Shown piece by piece: positions 6,391-62,510 of a DNA stretch of 64,000 nucleotides. The stretch is from positions 172,200-236,199 of the forward strand of contig NZ_JH815206.1 in NCBI RefSeq assembly GCF_000296465.1, given 5' to 3'. A model generated the notes under the pieces. That model ran no database searches and was not told where the DNA came from. It saw only the letters and a list, made by a program, of their open reading frames with translations. The position numbers and the translations under genes were made by a program. The stretch comes from Barnesiella intestinihominis YIT 11860 (GTDB taxonomy: Bacteria; Bacteroidota; Bacteroidia; Bacteroidales; Barnesiellaceae). Numbering within the stretch: position 1 is the stretch's first letter; each line of letters begins with the position of its first letter.

Positions 6391-6939
6391 TTACTTTTGC
6401 AATACCGGTTCGATCAACGACGGATGTACAAATGCCGTTGCCACAGCCATGACCCCTTCTATCGATACGACGACACGGCGATCTCCCTTAATACGAATGA
6501 AAATACCCTCGACCCCCGAAAAGACTCCCCCGACGATACGCACCCGATCGCCCTCCCGCAGAGAGACAATCGTCGGGTCTAAATAAACAATCTGTTCGTC
6601 ATAAGCACCCGCCACCGCTATAAAGCTGTGCATCTGTCTGTCGGGAACGACTAACGGCCTGCGAGTTTCCCGGTCCATGATATAGCGTATGGGGACTTTC
6701 AAAGAGATATCCCGCTTTATCTCATCTAACTTTTCCCGAGTGGACCGGACAAAAACAAGATTATGAATAACCGGGACCAACTTTCTCACCTTTCGCTCGC
6801 CTTTTATTACCTCCTTATACGACATAGGTATAAAAGATTCCATGCGGCAGCGGTCTAAATATTCCTTCAATGCCATCTCTCGGCTGTATGTCACCCGAAT
6901 GGCAAACCATTGCTTGGCCTCCGGTTCATTTTTCCCCAT
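6391..6939 (-). CDS. UpxY-type transcription antiterminator (NusG paralogue)
   Basis: A 182-residue NusG-like protein. The N-terminal NGN domain (QWFAIRVTYSREMALKEYL, then FIPMSYKEV) is followed by a KOW-type motif (LREGDRVRIVGGVFSGVEG). This architecture matches UpxY/LoaP-type specialised elongation factors, which in Bacteroides are the first gene of capsular polysaccharide operons and act on their own transcript. Here no capsule operon follows; the next gene is an unrelated lipoprotein. It may act at a distance, on the glycosyltransferase operon at 9.3 kb, or be a remnant of a lost locus. The start is an ATG that gives the usual length. Confidence 0.85.
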   Translation of the reverse strand: MGKNEPEAKQWFAIRVTYSREMALKEYLDRCRMESFIPMSYKEVIKGERKVRKLVPVIHNLVFVRSTREKLDEIKRDISLKVPIRYIMDRETRRPLVVPDRQMHSFIAVAGAYDEQIVYLDPTIVSLREGDRVRIVGGVFSGVEGIFIRIKGDRRVVVSIEGVMAVATAFVHPSLIEPVLQK

Positions 6940-9295: not shown

Positions 9296-10171
9296 ATGGA
9301 CAACCTCCATATATTTTTCGCCCTGAACGACAGTTACACATCGCACTATTGCGTGACAATGGTATCTGTCTTGACAAATACCCCGAACCGTCATTGCCAT
9401 TTTTATTTATTGACAGACTATATTTCGGAAAAGAACAAGGGGCGTTTTAGTCGAGTAGAAAAACAATACGCCAACTGCTCCATTCATTATCAACTCATTA
9501 CAGAAAAAATATTCGATTCTTTTCACCGTAATATAGATTATTTGGTATCTCCTGTAAGCTACTACCGATATATCATTCCCGAACTATCCCCCCAACTCGA
9601 CAAAGCGCTGTACCTCGACGGCGATTTAGTGGTAAACGGCTCATTAGAAAAGTTATGGGACACAGACATCACCGACTATCTATGTGCCGGCGTTCACGAC
9701 CTGTGGATAGAAAATATCAACTATAAACCTCAGATAGGCTTCTCGTCCGACGAGCTGTATATCAATGCCGGAGTATTACTCCTGAACATACCCAAAATGC
9801 GGGAAGAAAAGATATACGAAAAACTATGCGAAACAACTATCTCGCTGGGAAAACAGATACAATTCCAAGACCAAGATATTATCAATATCGTGTGCCGCGG
9901 CCGAGTCAAAGAGTTGCCCGAAAGGTATAACTTCACGACCGAGAACGCTATCAAGCATCCCCAAGAAAGAGACAAAGCCGTCATCGTTCACTACACGGGA
10001 AGAGCGAAACCCTGGTCTGTTTGGAAGTGTCCCAATCCGCAAAGCCGCCTGTATTTCGACTATCTGAAAAAGACTCCCTATAAAAACGATATTTGGAGCT
10101 ATCGGCTCAAAAGATCGAAATACAAAATCGTCCGCAGGTTCAAAAAAATATTCGGCATTAAATCGCACTAA
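9296..10171 (+). CDS. Family 8 glycosyltransferase
   Basis: A 291-residue GT-A fold enzyme of family GT8, the group that transfers glucose or galactose to lipopolysaccharide and related glycans with retention of configuration. The metal-binding DxD is in ALYLDGDLVV. Other marks are the acceptor-side NAGVLLLN, QDQDIIN, and the C-terminal HYTGRAKPW that supplies the second metal ligand. No membrane segment is seen; it is cytosolic or loosely membrane-bound. First gene of a tightly packed operon that runs to 16029, 2 bases before the first GT2. Donor and acceptor cannot be read from the sequence. Confidence 0.9.
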   Translation: MDNLHIFFALNDSYTSHYCVTMVSVLTNTPNRHCHFYLLTDYISEKNKGRFSRVEKQYANCSIHYQLITEKIFDSFHRNIDYLVSPVSYYRYIIPELSPQLDKALYLDGDLVVNGSLEKLWDTDITDYLCAGVHDLWIENINYKPQIGFSSDELYINAGVLLLNIPKMREEKIYEKLCETTISLGKQIQFQDQDIINIVCRGRVKELPERYNFTTENAIKHPQERDKAVIVHYTGRAKPWSVWKCPNPQSRLYFDYLKKTPYKNDIWSYRLKRSKYKIVRRFKKIFGIKSH

Positions 10172-10173
10172 AC

Positions 10174-11151
10174 ATGCAGCCCTTCATATCTGTCATCATA
10201 CCCGTTTATAATATAGAACGGTATATCGGTAAATGCCTCGACTCGATTGTAGGTCAAACCTTGAAAGAGATCGAAATCATCGTTGTCGACGACGGCAGTA
10301 CAGACGACTCGTCCCGAATTATAGACCGATATGCCCGAACCGATTCCCGTATCGTCGCCATTCACAAAACAAACGGAGGGGTCGTATCGGCACGAAATTG
10401 CGGAATAGCGCAGGCAACGGGGCTGTACATTCTGTTTGTCGACGGGGACGACCACTTAGCCCCCGACGCCTGCGAACGGCTTCTGAGAAAAGCGCAAGCG
10501 ACCAGCGCCGACATGGTCATCATGCGGTTCGACATCGAGTATCCTCAGCATAAAGAAGAACCCCGGTTCTGGTCACAAGACGAATACGACCCGGTTACAG
10601 CCATTCACACGATGGCGCACGAGGAGTTCCGATGGAGTCTTTGGTCTCGCCTCATGAGGAAAGAGTTGTTCGATCGTCCGGTGGACTGCCCTCCACAGCT
10701 TATTTTCGGAGAAGATGCCTATCAAATTACCCAATTGACCTACCGAGCCCAAAAGATAGTGACATTACGGGACAAAATCCTGTACCACTACACCGTCCGG
10801 GACAGTTCCGTATCGCAACATGCCATGACGCAGCAAAAAGCCGAGAGTATAGAATTATACCCGCAATTCATCGAACGGTTCTTACAACAGACTCCTGATA
10901 GCGAAATGTTTCGGGAAGACATCGTTTACATTAAATTTCAGGCATATCTTATTTTGTTGTTAAAAAATTGGGAAACCGGTATGAAAGCTCGATGCCGATT
11001 TATGTCTCACAGCTTGAAAAAATATCCCCGATTGAAAGAGATATCCGAAGTAAAACGGTTCACCAAGCTCATTCATCTATATAGTTTCTCCTCTATTTTA
11101 GGAAAATTGTATATGAAATATTATATTCGCAAAGGAAAAATACGAATATAA
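10174..11151 (+). CDS. Family 2 glycosyltransferase, tandem paralogue 1
   Basis: A 325-residue GT2 enzyme. The N-terminal GT-A domain starts SVIIPVYNIERYIGKCLDS and has the nucleotide-sugar motif VDDGSTDDS and the DxD region FVDGDDHL. The C-terminal half is helical and ends with Tyr- and Lys-rich KLYMKYYIRKGKIRI. It is the most diverged of four consecutive paralogues: the motif after DGST differs and GGVVSARN replaces the EGLAYARK of the others. Likely role: successive sugar additions to one surface glycan. The start is an ATG 2 bases after the GT8 stop. Confidence 0.88.
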   Translation: MQPFISVIIPVYNIERYIGKCLDSIVGQTLKEIEIIVVDDGSTDDSSRIIDRYARTDSRIVAIHKTNGGVVSARNCGIAQATGLYILFVDGDDHLAPDACERLLRKAQATSADMVIMRFDIEYPQHKEEPRFWSQDEYDPVTAIHTMAHEEFRWSLWSRLMRKELFDRPVDCPPQLIFGEDAYQITQLTYRAQKIVTLRDKILYHYTVRDSSVSQHAMTQQKAESIELYPQFIERFLQQTPDSEMFREDIVYIKFQAYLILLLKNWETGMKARCRFMSHSLKKYPRLKEISEVKRFTKLIHLYSFSSILGKLYMKYYIRKGKIRI

Positions 11152-11165
11152 AAACGCATGGTCCT

Positions 11166-12143
11166 ATGCAACCCAGTGTATCTGTCATCATACCGGTTTA
11201 CAATATAGAGAAACATCTCGAAAAGTGCCTCGATTCGGTTATCGGTCAAACCTTGAAAGATATCGAAATCATTGTCGTCAACGACGGCAGTACCGATAAC
11301 TCTTTGGATATCATTACGCAGTATGCCCGGAAAGATTCCCGTATCGTTATTGTCGACAAACCGAACGAGGGTCTTGCTTATGCTCGTAAATCGGGTATCG
11401 AAGCAGCACACGGAAAATATGTACAACATCTCGACGGGGACGATTTCCTCGAACCCGATGCTTGCGAACTGCTTTTCAAACGAGCAGAAGAAACCGATGC
11501 CGATATAGTCATCATGCGGTTTCTCATAGATTCACCTCGCGGACAAAAAGAACCGCCATTTTGGACACAAGACGAATACAATAATATCTCGGCTATCCAT
11601 ACGATGGCACACGAAGACTACCGTTGGAATTTAGTATTCCTTTTCCAACGTCGCGATCTACATGCTGTTCCCATCGACTACTTGCAAAATCTCACTTATG
11701 GAGAGGACGCTTACCAAAGCATACAAATCGCCTACCGGTCAAAAAAAATCGTAACTCTCAGGGACAAGCCTCTGTACCACTATGTGATTCGGGAAAGTTC
11801 TGTCACACAAACAGGAATGACCCGAAAAAAGACCGAAAACGTCTTGCTATTCCCCAACCTCATCGAAACCTTTCTCGAAGGTACGCCCGAAAATAGGCAG
11901 TTCACAGAGGACATCGTTTACATACGGTTCAGAGCTTACTTCCTGCTGTTACTTAAAAACTGGCGGGAAGGAATGACGGAGCGCTGTCGATTTATGGCAG
12001 AGAGTCTCGCCAAATATCCGGCTCTGGAACAACTGGAAGAAGTCCGAAGATTCACTAAACTCATTCGCCTGTATGCACGCTGTCCGTGGTTGGGAAAACT
12101 CTATACCAACTACTATGTACACAAAGGAAAAATCAAAGCCTAA
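11166..12143 (+). CDS. Family 2 glycosyltransferase, tandem paralogue 2
   Basis: A 325-residue GT2 enzyme, exactly the same length as paralogue 1 and clearly duplicated from it. Shared C-terminal features include TQDEYN..AIHTMAHEDYRW and LILLLKNW/FLLLLKNW. The GT-A domain carries VNDGSTDNS and HLDGDDFLEPDA, and the acceptor-side region has YGEDAYQS. The N-terminal half already resembles paralogues 3 and 4 (NEGLAYARKSGIEAA). The gene begins 14 bases after paralogue 1. Confidence 0.88.
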   Translation: MQPSVSVIIPVYNIEKHLEKCLDSVIGQTLKDIEIIVVNDGSTDNSLDIITQYARKDSRIVIVDKPNEGLAYARKSGIEAAHGKYVQHLDGDDFLEPDACELLFKRAEETDADIVIMRFLIDSPRGQKEPPFWTQDEYNNISAIHTMAHEDYRWNLVFLFQRRDLHAVPIDYLQNLTYGEDAYQSIQIAYRSKKIVTLRDKPLYHYVIRESSVTQTGMTRKKTENVLLFPNLIETFLEGTPENRQFTEDIVYIRFRAYFLLLLKNWREGMTERCRFMAESLAKYPALEQLEEVRRFTKLIRLYARCPWLGKLYTNYYVHKGKIKA

Positions 12144-12150
12144 CGGAACT

Positions 12151-13128
12151 ATGCCTGCCGTCTCTATCGTCATACCGGTTTATAACATCGGGAAATACCT
12201 TGAAAAATGTCTCGACTCGGTCGTCGCTCAGACATTCCCCGACATAGAAATCATCGTCGTCAACGACGGCAGTACCGACAACTCGCCGGAAATCATCGCC
12301 CGATATGCCGACAAAGACTCTCGTATCGTCGTCATCGACAAATCCAACGAGGGACTTGCCTACGCCCGTAAATCGGGCATCGAGGCAGCACGGGGAACGT
12401 ACATCTATCACCTCGACGGCGACGATTATTTAGAATTCGATGCCATAGAACTGCTCTACCGTAAAGCCAAAGAAGAAGATGCCGATATGGTAGTCTTCCC
12501 ATTCTCCCTCGACTATATCGAATCCGGGAAATCCGAGTGTTCCATAGAGATAGCCGACGAGCATTTTACCAACACGGAGTTTTTTTCGGCAATCGCTTTT
12601 TCCAAAGCCCATTGGGGAGTATGGAGCTATCTGCACAAACGAAGTCTCTACGCAAACGGTGTTACATTCCACAAGGGACTGAACTACGGCGAAGATGTTT
12701 TTCTCACCACGCAACTGGTTTATTTTTCCTCCCGAATCTCCGTATTGAAGAGTAAACCACTTCTTCATTATATCATACGGGAAAGCTCCATTACCAACAG
12801 TCGTTTCAATGAAAAGAAAGCAAGAGATATTCTTCTCTACCCTTCATTGGTAAACGATTTTCTCAAAGACAAACCCGAATACGGTTCTTTACAAAAAGCA
12901 CTCGGAGCCATTCGCATACAGGCAAACAATACCCTATTGAGTAAACGTTGGTTTAAGGATGCCCGTACTCTGAGCCGGGAATCTCATGCTATCCTGAAAC
13001 AGTATCCCGATCTCAAACGTATTCCCCAAATCAAGGCCTTTCATAAACTGTTTACGCTTTATGCTCGCAGCGGTTTATTAGGAAGATTGTACGCCCAATA
13101 TTATATTTGCAAAAAGAAAATCAAATAA
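12151..13128 (+). CDS. Family 2 glycosyltransferase, tandem paralogue 3
   Basis: A 325-residue GT2 enzyme with SIVIPVYNIGKYLEKCLDS, VNDGSTDNS and HLDGDDYLEFDA. I place the start at the ATG at 12151, seven bases after the stop of paralogue 2. An upstream in-frame ATG at 12073 would overlap the previous gene by 70 bases and precede the conserved N-terminus. Bases 12202-12377 differ from 13182-13357 of paralogue 4 at only three places, including silent sites, while the C-terminal halves differ widely. That is a sign of gene conversion between neighbours. The stop overlaps the next start (TAATG). Confidence 0.88.
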   Translation: MPAVSIVIPVYNIGKYLEKCLDSVVAQTFPDIEIIVVNDGSTDNSPEIIARYADKDSRIVVIDKSNEGLAYARKSGIEAARGTYIYHLDGDDYLEFDAIELLYRKAKEEDADMVVFPFSLDYIESGKSECSIEIADEHFTNTEFFSAIAFSKAHWGVWSYLHKRSLYANGVTFHKGLNYGEDVFLTTQLVYFSSRISVLKSKPLLHYIIRESSITNSRFNEKKARDILLYPSLVNDFLKDKPEYGSLQKALGAIRIQANNTLLSKRWFKDARTLSRESHAILKQYPDLKRIPQIKAFHKLFTLYARSGLLGRLYAQYYICKKKIK

Positions 13129-14102
13129 TGCCACCCAAAGTATCTGTCGTCATACCCGTCTACAACGTCAGTAAACAACTCGAAAAATGTCTCGACTCGG
13201 TCGTCGCCCAGACATTCCCCGACATAGAAATCATTGTCGTCAACGACGGCAGTACCGACAACTCGCCGGAAATCATCGCCCGATATGCCGACAAAGACTC
13301 TCGCATCGTCGTCATCGACAAATCCAACGAGGGACTTGCCTACGCCCGTAAATCGGGAATAGAAGCCGCACAAGGCGAATATATACAACACCTCGACGGT
13401 GACGATTTCCTCGAACCCGACGCCATAGAACTGCTTTACAATAAGGCCATAGAAGATGCCGCCGACATGGTGGTCTTTCCATTTTGGTTCGACTATGTAG
13501 ATGAAAAGAAAAAAAGATCGTCCCGCCCCGCTCCGGGAGTTTACGATTCGGTCTCCTTTTTTCAATCGATGGCATTCTGTCGCAATTATTGGTCGGTTTG
13601 CTCTTATCTGCATAAACGATCTCTTTATGCAGAAGTACACTTCGAAAAAGGCTTGAATTATGGCGAAGATGCCTATTTAGCTTCCCAACTAACCTATTTC
13701 GCAAACAAAATAGTCGTTCTGGAATCCCACCCGTTGCTACACTATGTTATTCGTAATGATTCCATTTCTTTCGGATCTTTTTCCGAAAAGAAAGCCCGCG
13801 ACATCGAATTATATCCGCAACTGCAACGCCGGTTCTACCAAGACAAACCCACTTATCCCCAAGTGGAAGAAGCTCTGGCAAATGTCGAATTAGGTGCGAT
13901 CGTTCTGTTATTGAGCAAACGGTGGTTCCAAGAAGCACCCCGACTCGCCCGAAGGGCTATGGAAATAGAAAAACAATTTCCCGACCTGTTACACCGACGG
14001 CCTGCACGACGTTACCGCAAGCTGTTAAAGGCCTATGCCCGTAGTGAGTTCTGGGGAAAATTGGTGGCTCGATATTATCTCCTAACCCGAAAAATAAAAT
14101 GA
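13128..14102 (+). CDS. Family 2 glycosyltransferase, tandem paralogue 4
   Basis: A 324-residue GT2 enzyme with SVVIPVYNVSKQLEKCLDS, VNDGSTDNS, HLDGDDFLEPDA and NYGEDAYLASQL. The chosen start is the ATG at 13128 in the TAATG overlap with paralogue 3, giving the family N-terminus directly. The C-terminal half is closest to paralogue 3 in layout (SFFQSMAFCRNYWSVCSYLHKRSLYA) but strongly diverged in sequence. The last codons overlap the following GT4 start (ATGA). Probably the four paralogues add related sugars in sequence, or are a substrate for diversification. Confidence 0.88.
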   Translation: MPPKVSVVIPVYNVSKQLEKCLDSVVAQTFPDIEIIVVNDGSTDNSPEIIARYADKDSRIVVIDKSNEGLAYARKSGIEAAQGEYIQHLDGDDFLEPDAIELLYNKAIEDAADMVVFPFWFDYVDEKKKRSSRPAPGVYDSVSFFQSMAFCRNYWSVCSYLHKRSLYAEVHFEKGLNYGEDAYLASQLTYFANKIVVLESHPLLHYVIRNDSISFGSFSEKKARDIELYPQLQRRFYQDKPTYPQVEEALANVELGAIVLLLSKRWFQEAPRLARRAMEIEKQFPDLLHRRPARRYRKLLKAYARSEFWGKLVARYYLLTRKIK

Positions 14103-15244
14103 AAACGGACATGAAGATTCTCTTCTTTTCTCACGGAAAACGGGCGAACGGCGGTGCGGAACGATGTTTGCTGGACTTGGTCAAAGGATTGAAACAAGCT
14201 CGCGAATCGTGGGAAATCTATGTGGTCTTCCCGGCAAAAGACGAACTGTGGGAAATGACCCGACCCTACTTGTCGGGATATGCTTTCATTCGCCAGCCGT
14301 GGTGGCTCGTGCGTCCGAAAAAACGTAACTGGCGGAAACGCTTGCTTTTCAATCTGAAAAAGAGCCCAGCAATCCGCAAAACACGCGACTATATCCGGGA
14401 AATCAAGCCCGATATAACCATAACGAATACATTAGCTACCCCCATCGGAGCCATAGCTTCCCAAGCAGAAAATATTCCGCACGATTGGTTCATTCACGAA
14501 ATTCCGGAATTAGCCCGAAACCTGACCTATCTATTCTGCGAAGGTAGTTGCTTAGAAAAGATAAGCTCCCTTTCGCAAAGAATATTAGTACCTTCTGACT
14601 TTGCAGGGAAATACTATACGAACAAACTATCCTCTCCCGAAAAAATCGATGTCGTTTATCAATCGGTCGAAGTCAATCCGCCCAAACGTACCGAACCCGA
14701 CCAGAGCTTCACCATAGGTATGTTAGGAAACTTCGAACCTAATAAAGGGCAACACATCGCTATCGAGGCTTTGCGCGAAGTCGTAAAAAAATATCCCGAC
14801 ACCCGTCTTTTACTCATCGGCGGAAATAACAGCCGTTATGCACAAGAACTCGAAAAACGAATCACCGAATACAATCTGCGACAAAACGTATCGATTGTCG
14901 CACACACCGTTCACCCGCACGACTACCTCATACAAGCGGATGCGGCTTTGGTATGCTCCGGGTTCGAATGCTTCGGACGAGTTATCGTCGAGGGATTGAA
15001 ATGCGGTCTGCCGGTCATCGTTCCCGACAAACCATTCGGGCAAGAACTGATAAAAGAAGGATACAACGGATTTCTGTATAACCGGGAAAGCAGTGGGGAT
15101 TTAGCCCAAAAAATCATTTTACTGCGACAAACAGGGCATTTGCCGGAGATGAAACAAAACGCTCTGAAATCGGTCGAAAACCGCTTCTCCATACCAACAT
15201 TCGCCGAGGAATTTATCTCTATCATCAATTCGAAAAAAGCATGA
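14099..15244 (+). CDS. Family 4 glycosyltransferase
   Basis: A 381-residue GT-B fold enzyme. The N-terminal Rossmann domain starts ILFFSHGKRANGGAERCLLDL. The C-terminal domain has IGMLGNFEPNKGQHIAIEAL, the donor-binding ALVCSGFECFGRVIVEGLKCGLPVI with the E-x7-E pattern, and ends in a long helix. Such enzymes act at the cytosolic face of the membrane on lipid-linked acceptors. The start overlaps the previous stop by 4 bases (ATGA), and its own stop overlaps the next start, which shows translational coupling in the operon. Confidence 0.9.
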   Translation: MKTDMKILFFSHGKRANGGAERCLLDLVKGLKQARESWEIYVVFPAKDELWEMTRPYLSGYAFIRQPWWLVRPKKRNWRKRLLFNLKKSPAIRKTRDYIREIKPDITITNTLATPIGAIASQAENIPHDWFIHEIPELARNLTYLFCEGSCLEKISSLSQRILVPSDFAGKYYTNKLSSPEKIDVVYQSVEVNPPKRTEPDQSFTIGMLGNFEPNKGQHIAIEALREVVKKYPDTRLLLIGGNNSRYAQELEKRITEYNLRQNVSIVAHTVHPHDYLIQADAALVCSGFECFGRVIVEGLKCGLPVIVPDKPFGQELIKEGYNGFLYNRESSGDLAQKIILLRQTGHLPEMKQNALKSVENRFSIPTFAEEFISIINSKKA

Positions 15245-40658: not shown

Positions 40659-41648
40659 TTAAATTCCCAATGAAGCCGATATGTCGAGCATACGCTGTAT
40701 AGGTTCGATAGCTTTTTCGGCTATCTCTTTATCCACTATCATCTCGGGCAACTCGTATTTAAGCGTGTTATACAATTTTTTCATCGTATTCAATCGCATG
40801 AAATTACACTCGTTACAAGCACATGTACTATCGTTGGGAGGCGCAGGTATAAACTCTTTGTCGGGATTGTTTTTCTTCATTTCATGCAATATACCCGACT
40901 CGGTAGCTACTATGAAACGCTTGCAGTCCGATTGTGTCGCAAAGCGCAAAAGAGCAGCCGTGGAACCTACCTTGTCAGCTACTAACAATATATCTCTTTT
41001 ACATTCCGGGTGAGCCAGTATCAACGCATCGGGATACTGTTTTTTCAAATCTACTATTTTTTCCAATGAAAATTGGGAATGCACGTGGCAAGCTCCGTCC
41101 CATAATAGCATATCACGTCCTGTGATACTGTTTATATAGTTACCCAAATTTTTATCGGGTCCGAATATGATCTTCTCGTCGGCAGGGAAACTCTCTACGA
41201 TTTGACGGGCATTCGACGAAGTGACTACCACATCGGTATAAGCCTTTACCGCCGCAGATGTATTTACATAAGATATGACTTTATAGCCGGGGTGAGCTTT
41301 TACGAATTCGGCAAAAGTATCGGCCGGACAACTGTCTGCCAAAGAACACCCGGCATTCATGTCGGGTATCAGTACTTTCTTGTCGGGACAAATAATTTTG
41401 GCGGTCTCGCCCATAAAATGAACACCGCAAAGCACCAATATGGAAGCATCTGTTTTCGCAGCCCATTGAGCCAATGCCAAAGAATCTCCCACATAATCGG
41501 CTATATCCTGTAAATCTCCCGATTGGTAGTAATGAGCGAGAACGACAGCATTTTTCTCCCGCTTCATTCTCTCTATCTCGGACACTAAGTCTATCCCTTC
41601 GGGAACAGGCATATCCACATAACCTTTGGAGATATCTACATCGAACAT
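40659..41648 (-). CDS. nadA: Quinolinate synthase
   Basis: Iron-sulfur enzyme that condenses iminoaspartate with dihydroxyacetone phosphate to quinolinate in NAD synthesis, 329 residues. It shows AVVLAHYYQSGDLQDIADYVGDS, LVLCGVHFMGETAKI with the first cluster Cys, DGACHVHSQF, and NECNFMRLNTMKKLY with the C-terminal Cys. The nadB gene providing its substrate is 21 kb away. First gene of the leftward nadA-leuS-yitT run, beginning at the edge of the candidate origin. Confidence 0.96.
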   Translation of the reverse strand: MFDVDISKGYVDMPVPEGIDLVSEIERMKREKNAVVLAHYYQSGDLQDIADYVGDSLALAQWAAKTDASILVLCGVHFMGETAKIICPDKKVLIPDMNAGCSLADSCPADTFAEFVKAHPGYKVISYVNTSAAVKAYTDVVVTSSNARQIVESFPADEKIIFGPDKNLGNYINSITGRDMLLWDGACHVHSQFSLEKIVDLKKQYPDALILAHPECKRDILLVADKVGSTAALLRFATQSDCKRFIVATESGILHEMKKNNPDKEFIPAPPNDSTCACNECNFMRLNTMKKLYNTLKYELPEMIVDKEIAEKAIEPIQRMLDISASLGI

Positions 41649-42027
41649 ATAATATATTCTTTTTATTTTTTAATTTTAAAATCTTTATTGTTGATGATAA
41701 TAGACTGTTGATAGTAATGATAACTTCTTGTTAAAATACTTGTTATTTAAAGTTTCAACTGACTATGAAAATATATTCTTACTTTATCAACGTTTTTATC
41801 TTTTCTATATGAGCTCTTTATCTTCTTTATCAACTATCTGTTTACAATATGCAAAGTTAATAACTTTATTCTATTTGCATGATTGATAAATAGATATTTT
41901 AGGTGGATATATGAACTAAAAACTCGATGAGTTATTATTTGCTTTATTGACATGCAGTGCTGTATAGATATATGATTTTTAAAAGCAATATTTTTATCAC
42001 TTTTTTGTGCAAGTATTTTATAACGAT

Positions 42028-42057
42028 TTATACACATTTAATAACAACTTATGCACA
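42028..42057 (+). promoter_or_regulatory. Pair of DnaA-box-like sites
   Basis: TTATACACA (42028-42036) and TTATGCACA (42049-42057) are in the same orientation, 21 bases apart, two helical turns. Both fit TTATNCACA exactly. Confidence 0.6.
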
Positions 42058-42165
42058 TAGCGTTGTGTCCGTGGGGTAGATAGGAGGTTGTTGTATATAG
42101 ACGGGTGTAATTTTATATTTACCGAAAATGTGAGAATCGTCTGTACTTCGACATGGCTCTATATG

Positions 42166-42197
42166 ATTGTTTTTGCGCTCGGCTTATACTATCTTTG
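42166..42197 (+). promoter_or_regulatory. Promoter of the SpoU methyltransferase, diverged promoter repeat
   Basis: ATTG (42166-42169), 20 bases, TATCTTTG (42190-42197). The preceding CTTCGACATGGCTCTATATG and the spacer GCGCTCGGC resemble a decayed copy of the promoter repeat family. The ATG lies at 42237. Confidence 0.55.
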
Positions 42198-42236
42198 TAC
42201 AAAATGGAAATTAGACTCTTATAAAGATTATCGTTT

Positions 42237-42767
42237 ATGAAGAAAAAGAGTGTATTGGATTTGAAAAGAATTTCACAAGAAGAGTTCAAACGGGTTGAAA
42301 AAATATCGCTGACCGTTATTTTGGATAATGTGAGGAGTCTCAATAATATAGGTTCTGTATTTCGCACGGCCGATGCTTTCAGAGTGGAGTGTATTTATTT
42401 GTGTGGAATAACGGCTACACCGCCTCATACCGATATTCATAAGACAGCTTTGGGAGCCGAGGACAGCGTCGACTGGGTTTATTTTCAAGACACTTACGAG
42501 GCTGTTGATAACTTGTTGGCAGCCGGATATGAGGTATATGCCATAGAACAAGTAGAAGGCAGTATAAGTCTGACAGACATAAAATTGGATAAGAATAAAA
42601 AATATGCCGTCGTGTTGGGTAATGAAGTGAAAGGTGTACAGCAGTCGGTGGTCGATAAATGTACGGGAAGTATAGAAATACCTCAATTCGGTACTAAACA
42701 TTCATTGAATGTGTCGGTAACGGCGGGACTGGTAATTTGGGATTTCTTTAAACAGTTAGGAATATAA
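42237..42767 (+). CDS. SpoU-family RNA 2'-O-methyltransferase
   Basis: A 176-residue SPOUT methyltransferase that methylates ribose in tRNA or rRNA. The three family motifs are visible: LDNVRSLNNIGSVFRTADAF, VVLGNEVKGV, and the knot end IPQFGTKHSLNVSVTAGLVIWDF. It lacks the N-terminal substrate-binding domain of TrmH/RlmB, so the target is open. It lies between the two DnaA-box regions and is transcribed rightward, the leading-strand direction if the origin lies to its left. Confidence 0.92.
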   Translation: MKKKSVLDLKRISQEEFKRVEKISLTVILDNVRSLNNIGSVFRTADAFRVECIYLCGITATPPHTDIHKTALGAEDSVDWVYFQDTYEAVDNLLAAGYEVYAIEQVEGSISLTDIKLDKNKKYAVVLGNEVKGVQQSVVDKCTGSIEIPQFGTKHSLNVSVTAGLVIWDFFKQLGI

Positions 42768-42837
42768 CTTTGTAAAAAAAATAACTTATTAAAATTAAGT
42801 GCTTTATAAATAAAAAATATGTTTTAGAATCGATATA

Positions 42838-43440
42838 CTATAAAGAACCTTGTTCCACTAATATACAGATTCTTTCTATTATTTTATCTTCGCCTTCCGG
42901 ATCCCAATCGGTTTTAAGGGAAGCTCCGAATATTTTTCCGAAAAATTGCCAGAAGTTGGCTCTGAAACTGCCCAAGAATGCTTTGATTAGTTCGTACGAA
43001 GATTGGTTACATTCCCGGTTAATAAGTTTGATGAGCATTTTACCCTGCGACAAGGTAAACTTTTTCAATACCGGTTTATATTGTTGAAAAACTTCTTTTT
43101 CCATTTTCTTCATGTGTTCTTCTCGAGCTTTGTCGTCGGGAAGAGTTTCCATATATTCATAGGTTTCAATGAGTATGGAGTAGATGAGTTTGGCATAGGG
43201 TAGGGTCTTTTTCACATCGCGCACGGTCTTCCAGTAAAATTTTTCCTGTTTTTTGTCTTTGAATTTTTCGGGAGGAAATACATGAAACGTACGTAATTCT
43301 ATTACCAATACGGTATCGTTGTCTATGACAGCATGATAAAAATGTTTATATGCCGGGTGTGATTCCTGTACAATTTGGGATTTTGTACGGGGAATAAACA
43401 GGAAAAGAAAAAGAAACAATATGAATATGGTTCTCTTCAT
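42838..43440 (-). CDS. DUF4294-family protein
   Basis: A 200-residue exported protein. The start is the ATG at 43440, giving MKRTIFILFLFLFLFIPRTKS, a signal peptide; a TTG three codons upstream is less likely. The mature part shows the DUF4294 pattern: DTVLVIELRTFHVFPPEKFKDKKQ, KFYWKTVRDVKKTLPYAKLI and LIKLINRECNQSSYELIKAF. The family is Bacteroidota-specific and has no known function to my knowledge. It lies between the two parts of the candidate origin. Confidence 0.85.
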   Translation of the reverse strand: MKRTIFILFLFLFLFIPRTKSQIVQESHPAYKHFYHAVIDNDTVLVIELRTFHVFPPEKFKDKKQEKFYWKTVRDVKKTLPYAKLIYSILIETYEYMETLPDDKAREEHMKKMEKEVFQQYKPVLKKFTLSQGKMLIKLINRECNQSSYELIKAFLGSFRANFWQFFGKIFGASLKTDWDPEGEDKIIERICILVEQGSL

Positions 43441-43498
43441 AGGGTACAAATGTAAATCTTTCGATATTCATAAGCGCTACGTTTTTGCAATAATTATA

Positions 43499-43531
43499 TT
43501 ATTCACATGTGTTTATATCTATTGTGGATAA
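43499..43531. promoter_or_regulatory. Pair of DnaA-box-like sites
   Basis: TTATTCACA (43499-43507, plus strand) and TTATCCACA on the minus strand (TGTGGATAA at 43523-43531). The second is the exact E. coli consensus. A near match, TGTGGATAG, lies at 43718-43726. Confidence 0.6.
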
Positions 43532-43636
43532 ATTGTCGATATACTGTTTATTTATAAGTGTATAATATTATAAATAATTGGTTAATAGTATATTATAATT
43601 TGTTTATAACTATAAGACCTTATCAGTTGAAATCTC

Positions 43637-43781
43637 GTTGATAACTTGTTTATAGTCTATAAATAGCTAACTGTTCGTTCTTATATCGTTTTTGAGTTGA
43701 TAATCTGTTTATATGAATGTGGATAGAATAGTTATTATTCTGAAAATAAATTAATTATAGTTATAAACACAATGTTTATAA
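43637..43781. repeat. Short direct and inverted repeats in the origin candidate
   Basis: GTTGATAA followed by a TGTTTATA-like element occurs twice, at 43637 and 43696, 59 bases apart. TTATCAAC on the opposite strand occurs at 41784 and 41827 in the left region. At 43761-43781 TTATAAACA and TGTTTATAA form a perfect 9-base inverted repeat with a 3-base centre. The same TGTTTATAA is also at 43601-43609. Confidence 0.6.
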
Positions 43782-43870
43782 TAGATAATGATATGAAGAA
43801 TTGAGTAAGATTTCCATTGAATATGGAGCAATAATTTGTAAACTTTGTTTTTATGGAATAAGGAATATAA

Positions 43871-43936
43871 TTCGACATAGGTAGATTCAGAAATGAGATT
43901 TACGTTTGCCTCTGCTCCCGGCTTTCATTATATTTG
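43871..43936 (+). promoter_or_regulatory. Promoter-bearing repeat upstream of the radical SAM gene
   Basis: Another copy of the family: TTCGACATAGGTAGATTCAG core, then TTTG at 43905-43908 and TATATTTG at 43929-43936 with exactly 20 bases between. The leader before the ATG at 43958 is only about 15 bases. Confidence 0.7.
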
Positions 43937-43957
43937 TAACTGTAAAAAGGTAAAATT

Positions 43958-44737
43958 ATGCAGACAGTATTGTTTCACGAAATCATATTCGGTCCCATAC
44001 ACAGTCGTCGGTTGGGAATATCGCTGGGTGTCAACCTGCTCCCGGTGGACGGTAAGTTGTGTTCATTCGATTGTGTGTATTGCGAATGCGGTTATAATGC
44101 GCAAGGAGTGGGGAAGAGCGGATTGCCTTCGTCCGATAGAGTAGAGGAGGAGTTAAAATCTCGTTTACAATCCATGCACGAGGCAGGGGAAAAGCTCGAT
44201 GTGATAACTTTTGCCGGGAACGGAGAACCTACTCTACACCCTGAATTCGAGAAAATCATAGATACTACGCTTTATCTTCGGGATCACTATTATCCCGAAG
44301 CCAAGATAAGTGTACTATCCAACGCTACCCGCATTCACGACGAATCGGTGTTCAGGGCATTGAATAGGGTAGATAATAATATACTTAAACTCGATTCGCT
44401 TCGTCCCGAAACAGTCGTGTTGATAGATAATCCGAACGATCCGCATTTCGATGTGAATAAGGTAGTGGATAATTTAAAACGTTTTTCGGGTAATGTCATT
44501 ATCCAAACAATGTTTTTGCGAGGGTGGCACGACGGCAAGCGTATTGACAATACGGTCGAGGAGGAGCTGAAACCGTGGTTGGAGACTTTACAGCGCATTT
44601 CTCCTCGTTCGGTAATGGTTTATACCATCGATAGGAAAACGCCGGAGGAATCGCTCGAAAAAGTGTCTCGTGAGGAGTTGGAACAGATAGCCGACAGAGC
44701 GAGAGCGTTGGGCTTCGAAGTTTCCGTGTCGGCTTGA
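43958..44737 (+). CDS. Radical SAM protein
   Basis: A 259-residue radical SAM enzyme. The cluster motif CSFDCVYC (CxxxCxxC) is near residue 35, preceded by GPIHSRRLGISLGVNLLP. Further conserved parts are TFAGNGEPTLHPEFEKII and LSNATRI. This matches the small family near MoaA-like and wyosine-type SAM proteins with no attached domain, often annotated only as radical SAM protein; the substrate is unknown. It has a repeat-derived promoter and a strong terminator, so it is a single-gene unit. Confidence 0.88.
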   Translation: MQTVLFHEIIFGPIHSRRLGISLGVNLLPVDGKLCSFDCVYCECGYNAQGVGKSGLPSSDRVEEELKSRLQSMHEAGEKLDVITFAGNGEPTLHPEFEKIIDTTLYLRDHYYPEAKISVLSNATRIHDESVFRALNRVDNNILKLDSLRPETVVLIDNPNDPHFDVNKVVDNLKRFSGNVIIQTMFLRGWHDGKRIDNTVEEELKPWLETLQRISPRSVMVYTIDRKTPEESLEKVSREELEQIADRARALGFEVSVSA

Positions 44738-62438: not shown

Positions 62439-62510
62439 TGTTTCACGTGAAACAAATCGCTAGAAAGCCTTTAAATAAAGGGATAGAACGAATAAAACAA
62501 TAAAAATAAA

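Follow-up and report, generated by a model that had tools for sequence, protein, structure and literature searches.

A probable chromosomal replication origin of Barnesiella intestinihominis beside nadA and far from dnaA

The DNA considered here (the window) is a 64-kb stretch of Barnesiella intestinihominis YIT 11860 (GCF_000296465.1, NZ_JH815206.1 172,200-236,199), whose genome comprises 3,441,698 bases in five contigs, C1 to C5, the window being C4:172200-236199. At bases 41,649-43,957, two intergenic gaps flank trmH and a gene of the DUF4294 family, and this interval is very probably the single chromosomal replication origin (oriC) of this Barnesiella. A first-pass annotation had proposed a candidate origin at this place, and support for it now comes from GC skew, DnaA-box density, the skew minimum of a closed relative and a parS site 20 kb away as an independent marker. 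Its description of the site as not linked to dnaA was correct, as the single copy of dnaA, recognized by three Pfam domains, lies at C2:460 kb, on a contig other than the window's. The genes and gaps are as follows, with flanking genes assigned by Pfam.

40659-41648, minus strand: nadA, quinolinate synthase, left flank of the candidate origin (NadA, 1e-120)
41,649-42,236: nadA-trmH gap (first gap)
42237-42767, plus strand: trmH/SpoU-type RNA methyltransferase gene, separating the gaps (SpoU_methylase, 6e-34)
42838-43440, minus strand: DUF4294 gene, separating the gaps (DUF4294, 2e-60)
43,441-43,957: DUF4294-radical SAM gap (second gap)
43958-44737, plus strand: radical-SAM gene, right flank (Radical_SAM, 4e-12)

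GC skew was sampled in 54 stretches, nearly all of 20 kb, which together with the window in quarters gave 58 rows covering 33.2% of the genome (C5, of 5 kb, was unused). Skew is negative in all 16 rows of C1 and all 12 rows of C3, positive in the first 10 rows of C2 and negative in its last 4, and on C4 negative in the 5/5 rows preceding the window and in three of its quarters, then positive in the last quarter and in 7/7 rows rightward. The sole minus-to-plus switch inside a contig is the one in the window, where cumulative skew reaches its minimum at 41,871, which bears out the reversal of strand composition described in the first-pass annotation. The sole plus-to-minus switch maps, in the 100 kb that were examined, to C2:716 kb, about 256 kb past dnaA, and all four 16S genes (4/4) stand on the strand predicted from local skew. 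Over bases 1-31,000 of the window, skew is -0.091 despite mainly plus-strand genes, so it tracks replication and not gene direction. The gene direction that had been offered as further evidence was dropped as too mixed: nadA, leuS and yitT are indeed leftward, and mnmG, apt and a uvrC-like open frame (named by eye) rightward, but left of the site long open frames put the plus-strand share of the first two window quarters at 0.86 and 0.79, mostly opposed to the inferred fork, and right of it frames of 1014 and 498 amino acids run leftward, besides complex II.

A closed genome of the same genus (G008, one contig of 3,076,856 bases) switches skew at the same place. All ten samples between 320 and 1,780 kb are negative, 8/10 running from 1,920 kb through the end of the record to 180 kb are positive, and the skew minimum, at 1,836,657, falls within the nadA-trmH gap, 466 bp before trmH. 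One of its 20-kb stretches (G008:C1:2720001-2740000) has 34% GC and zero skew in a genome that elsewhere has about 50-55% GC, and is probably acquired DNA.

Bacterial origins are usually adjacent to dnaA, and the G008 record opens with dnaA, as though that gene had been chosen as its start. If the origin of Barnesiella were likewise at or beside dnaA (C2:460 kb), the present site would be merely a local compositional boundary, which is very hard to credit. To either side of dnaA, 10/10 samples from C2:1-700 kb have positive skew; the 20-kb sample with dnaA is outside the ten places richest in relaxed DnaA boxes (TATNNACA); and in G008 about 1.24 Mb separate dnaA from the skew minimum, with the sign of the skew unchanged across dnaA. 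An origin at dnaA was rejected for this lack of a skew switch in the samples of both genomes, and the positions of skew and dnaA place dnaA closer to the terminus than to the origin in each. Adjacency, although usual, is not defining in Bacteroidetes, where oriC is commonly far from dnaA according to a paper on Prevotella intermedia (PMC4755523).

The features below, in the two gaps and one farther right, bear on how such an origin might work.

41649..41689: AT-rich DNA of low computed stability, probable duplex unwinding element
41693..41703, plus strand: GATGATAATAG, DnaA-trio-like repeats, the conserved module core (alignment of copies)
41706..41714, minus strand: predicted DnaA box CTATCAACA, adjoining the trio-like repeats across a 2-bp spacer (AC)
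41850..41909: block near-invariant in nine Barnesiella genomes (alignment A1), containing the window skew minimum
42028..42057, plus strand: two predicted DnaA boxes toward the trmH end of the first gap, TTATACACA at 42028 and TTATGCACA at 42049
43499..43781, minus strand: relaxed-box array (TATNNACA) of the second gap, eight boxes on the minus strand and two on the plus (43499, 43761), period 11.4 bp
43561..43605: 45-bp stretch of lowest stability in the 64 kb, within the array (nearest-neighbour energies)
62439..62454: parS TGTTTCACGTGAAACA, immediately following the stop codon of mnmG; the genome has no other perfect match

The five boxes on which the candidate had been based are all present, the two at 42028 and 42049 together with TTATTCACA at 43499 on the plus strand, and TTATCCACA at 43523 and CTATCCACA at 43718 on the minus strand. 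Four of the 194 genomic copies of TTATNCACA (99 forward and 95 reverse in 3.44 Mb, vs 97 for the pattern reversed) fall within 42,028-43,531. Same-genus comparison drew on eight further genomes from a family search, giving nine aligned Barnesiella sequences (A1), and five of the nine carry TTATCCACA at the place of 42028-42057. As strict TTATCCACA was too rare for a marker, with 2 in the window, the looser TATNNACA was adopted, picked after viewing the alignments. By this marker, among 11,831 overlapping windows of 500 bp, drawn from 59 sampled sources in the same genome, the DUF4294-radical-SAM gap ranks first (11 matches) and the nadA-trmH gap second (7), with no other place above 5 and other windows of 30% GC or less reaching 4. 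The density expected of an origin relative to other AT-rich DNA, which the first-pass annotation had named as a check, is thus found here.

In the nine Barnesiella, the second gap holds 77 matches to TATNNACA against 9.5 (standard deviation 3.3, maximum 18) in 100 dinucleotide shuffles, and the first gap 24 against 7.7 (standard deviation 2.8, maximum 16) in 100 shuffles; the reversed control pattern, with 10 in the second gap and 8 in the first, has no excess over shuffles in these sequences. For two of them (L061 and L063) the second gap was taken to the sequence end, the next gene being other than the radical-SAM gene. Across 66 first gaps of Bacteroidales loci, matches number 269 vs 60 for the reversed pattern. 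Second-gap matches in the nine Barnesiella are strongly one-sided, those on the minus strand outnumbering those on the plus strand 63 to 14, and same-strand distances of up to 60 bp are exclusively 11-13, 22-24, 33-35, 44-47 and 55-59 bp. The phasing score peaks at 11.4 bp, with a value of 46.6 vs a maximum of 22.9 in 300 random sets, for nine Barnesiella that are related to one another.

The first gap opens, beside nadA, with a module (41649-41714) in the order AT-rich DNA, GATGATAATAG, two bases and a DnaA box. The second least stable 45-bp stretch of the 64 kb, as computed from nearest-neighbour energies, starts at 41,644, and the 43 bp preceding the module have 5-19% GC in nearly all module loci, with a maximum of 21% in one locus. 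Alignment of first gaps yields a shared element of AT-rich DNA, roughly TGATGATNATAG, two bases and TGTTRATA; the A and T at two positions of its core are invariant in 79/79 aligned copies, and TGTT and the next A of the box part are each kept in 78/79. The GATGATAATAG core has one copy only in the window at up to 3 mismatches, and in 1.21 Mb of its own genome the window copy, itself with zero mismatches, is the sole module with fewer than 4. Profile R1 scores the window module at 46 bits vs 16.7 for the next-best in the genome, the window being one of the 49 training rows.

Conservation was followed through a scan with the trmH protein, in which the best 80 of 172 loci were analysed and close relatives are consequently over-represented. 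Leftward nadA lies left of trmH in 71/80 loci, leftward DUF4294 right of it in 68/80, and the radical-SAM gene right of it in 50/80. Among loci longer than 20 kb, the cumulative-skew minimum falls within 1 kb before trmH in 40/55, and skew is negative on the left and positive on the right in 44/55. As the module's own letters favour a skew minimum there, the gap was also masked, and the minimum is still at the place in 34/49 loci. The module is found at up to 5 mismatches over 20 informative positions in 70/80 loci, at least one of which (L108) looks like chance, and at up to 3 mismatches in 57/80 at the place vs 1 elsewhere in 1.49 Mb of loci. In Parabacteroides bouchesdurhonensis, a second module copy with 2 mismatches (L133:14187-14208) lies 4.2 kb right of trmH and the nadA-side copy is poorer (5 mismatches), possibly a moved or duplicated origin element.

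Conservation next to a gene could also reflect regulation. The module might serve nadA or trmH as a regulatory site or as part of a promoter, with the boxes arising by chance in AT-rich DNA: in Barnesiella it lies about 40 bp before the nadA start, the gap contains TAnnTTTG stretches seen by eye, a motif taken here to be promoter-like, and in three loci (L090, L116, L126) the module is 61-64 bp from nadA despite trmH being 1.0-3.0 kb off. In three others (L117, L119, L124), however, it is 0.4-0.5 kb from trmH with nadA about 1.4 kb off, and in L127 the module is present and nadA was not found within the locus; the module is not tied to one gene. Profile matches with this layout also turn up in other families where the 3-kb locus has neither nadA nor trmH, and of five that were followed up two lie at a clear skew switch; the box excess survives both dinucleotide shuffles and comparison with AT-rich windows. 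A regulatory account of this kind is unlikely. The near-invariant block at 41850-41909 contains a minus-strand TAnnTTTG that is presumably nadA-promoter-like; hardly changed in nine Barnesiella, it exceeds the length a promoter would seem to need.

The more distant matches come from profile R1, which at E 0.01 (Infernal, stricter filters) has matches in 22/148 genomes of the phylum, its own included; several other matches near E 0.01, inside genes, appear chance-like. Five closed genomes with matches were sampled for skew at eight 20-kb samples each. Two have a clear skew switch, with the minimum 7 bp (G068) and 333 bp (G114) from the match; in G145 the arms agree loosely, in G129 skew is mixed, and G013, whose match is beside a nadA, is contrary, with the wrong skew sign on both arms. 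Because the same layout coincides with a clear skew switch in two closed genomes that belong to another Bacteroidia family and lack these neighbours, the module layout is probably older than the nadA-trmH setting, on two good cases of five. Two closed genomes from another family of Bacteroidia (L209, L217; about 9.8-10.4 kb) carry the module between RNase R-like and rpiB-like frames, named by eye, as were the RNase R and rpiB beside the match in G114 and G145.

Whether both gaps belong to the origin is a finer question. The nadA-trmH gap alone may be the origin and the second gap a DnaA reservoir or regulator, a substantial possibility that nevertheless stands below even: the skew minima and the Bacteroidales-conserved module are both in the first gap, and Barnesiella and some Coprobacter-like loci have a strong array, many Bacteroides, in which DUF4294 is further off, a weak one. 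The second gap, on the other hand, has the window's most boxes and its least stable DNA, and 11-bp spacing, with boxes 2 bp apart, is the optimum described for a DnaA filament (PMC8235120). The fuller proposal is that Bacteroidales initiate at a conserved module beside nadA, that Barnesiella adds a bipartite origin with a second, 11.4-bp-phased, one-strand DnaA cluster past trmH-DUF4294, genes other than dnaA, and that the module is older than its gene setting; taken whole, its chances are put only slightly short of even.

A segregation marker points to the same part of the chromosome. With the 16-mer taken here as the parS consensus, the site at 62,439 is 20 kb from the origin, and the one other site at up to 2 mismatches is 172 kb off on the same contig. 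G008 has one perfect parS 33 kb from its skew minimum and one distant 2-mismatch site. In B. fragilis Q1F2 and two Parabacteroides, one-mismatch parS sites lie about 25-240 kb from trmH, assuming that the contigs match those of the loci, and further two-mismatch sites are scattered. The one parB gene is at C3:484 kb, not beside the origin; the genome has both components looked for in a ParABS system, a parS near the origin and a parB.

The interval thus combines a skew switch, a box cluster above chance and above other AT-rich DNA, and DNA computed to open easily, in a genome that encodes dnaA. The first-pass annotation is extended by the unwinding-type module, the phased second-gap array, parS and the finding that the place is conserved across Bacteroidales. 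Several observations weigh on the other side. The genome is in contigs, the skew rows cover one third of it, and contig joins lie outside the rows; in the right arm of G008, 2/10 samples are non-positive (+0.000, -0.035), both low in GC. Skew gives a soft fine position, as the window minimum of 41,871 sits 179 bp from the module and the minimum is within 30 bp of the module in 23/49 loci only, and a pyrimidine-rich tract followed by the G-bearing module in itself draws a skew minimum there. A second control pattern, ACACNTATT, has 3 matches in the first gap vs a shuffle maximum of 2. Phasing in the window's own genome alone is weak, being matched by 3.0% of 300 random placements, and the second-gap array is poor in many Bacteroides; TTATNCACA occurs near trmH at 0.234 per kb vs 0.078 elsewhere, yet is absent there in many Bacteroides loci. 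The nine Barnesiella and the 80 loci are, finally, kin and not independent.

From the sequence, the working of the very probable origin may be pictured as follows, where what we infer comprises DnaA binding, opening at the module, the function of the second gap, looping, and segregation. DnaA, encoded more than 1 Mb away in the closed relative, would bind the degenerate-box clusters (TTATNNACA) in both gaps, and the box at 41,706 would seat the end of a DnaA filament. From there the filament would extend across the spacer of two bases to a single strand of the GATGATAATAG repeats, with the AT-rich DNA toward nadA (41,649-41,689) opening for helicase loading. The 11.4-bp-phased array may align further DnaA on one helix face and either loop back to the first gap or tune the amount of free DnaA, making the second gap a putative filament platform or regulator. 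Two forks would depart in opposite directions and meet near C2:716 kb, and ParB bound at the parS at 62,439 would probably direct segregation of the new origins.

Bacteroidales figure among the main bacteria of the human gut, and metagenomic growth rates are read from origin-versus-terminus depth, so the true origin matters. Records that begin at dnaA, as closed G008 seems to, would begin near the terminus and not at the origin. With a module candidate at base level, origin opening in Bacteroidales can be tested directly, at a resolution of a few tens of bases. The open-licence literature searched yielded no experimentally mapped origin for Bacteroidales, and the site is not claimed to be unpublished.

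Elsewhere in the window, bases 9296-15244 hold glycosyltransferase-like frames, judged by eye, of which neighbours are strongly similar (shared stretches such as VIDKSNEGLAYARKSGIEAA), and a NusG/UpxY-like antiterminator frame, also assigned by eye, lies at 6391-6939 on the minus strand.

Distance from dnaA is already known for Bacteroidetes origins; what is possibly new is the arrangement. The predicted oriC of the first chromosome of Prevotella intermedia OMA14 likewise has DnaA boxes at a GC-skew transition with dnaA distant, and the available portion of that account does not give flanking genes, an unwinding module, a second cluster or parS (PMC4755523). The first gap resembles in layout the basal unwinding system (BUS) of Bacillus subtilis and other origins, which share the order AT-rich DNA, trinucleotide repeats, short spacer and DnaA box (PMC8287927, PMC8235120, PMC10316083); this shared order marks the nadA-trmH gap as the likely opening site. 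PMC8287927 gives a BUS search rule of at least three central-A triplets within 16 bp of a DnaA box. By eye, Barnesiella has two such triplets in the box-touching register and three (TAA, TAG, TAG, 3' to 5') one base on, with a 2-bp spacer and, in the window, a degenerate outer (second) box. A BUS would also have tandem DnaA boxes, the outer being closer to consensus. Two boxes stand in tandem in L112, L113, L121, L137 and L138, where the next 9 bases, TGTGGATAA, are the exact reverse complement of TTATCCACA. The oriC of Thermotoga maritima has similar TAG-type repeats, a GC-rich spacer with a box, and a dependence on DNA phase (PMC10316083), and differs in its box sequence and in being a single compact region.

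The closest parallel to the two gaps is with the bipartite origins of B. subtilis and Helicobacter pylori, which also have two DnaA-box clusters with genes between them and an unwinding element at one; boxes 2 bp apart are described for H. pylori oriC1 (PMC8235120). There dnaA lies between the clusters, whereas in Barnesiella trmH and DUF4294, about 1.2 kb of genes, take that position, and looping would have to be supposed. Two DnaA-box clusters are present and dnaA does not separate them, so the Barnesiella site at most works like bipartite origins and is not classed as one. The evidence suggests a two-part layout around trmH-DUF4294 in place of dnaA, and, if this is true, a bipartite design would be independent of having dnaA in the middle.

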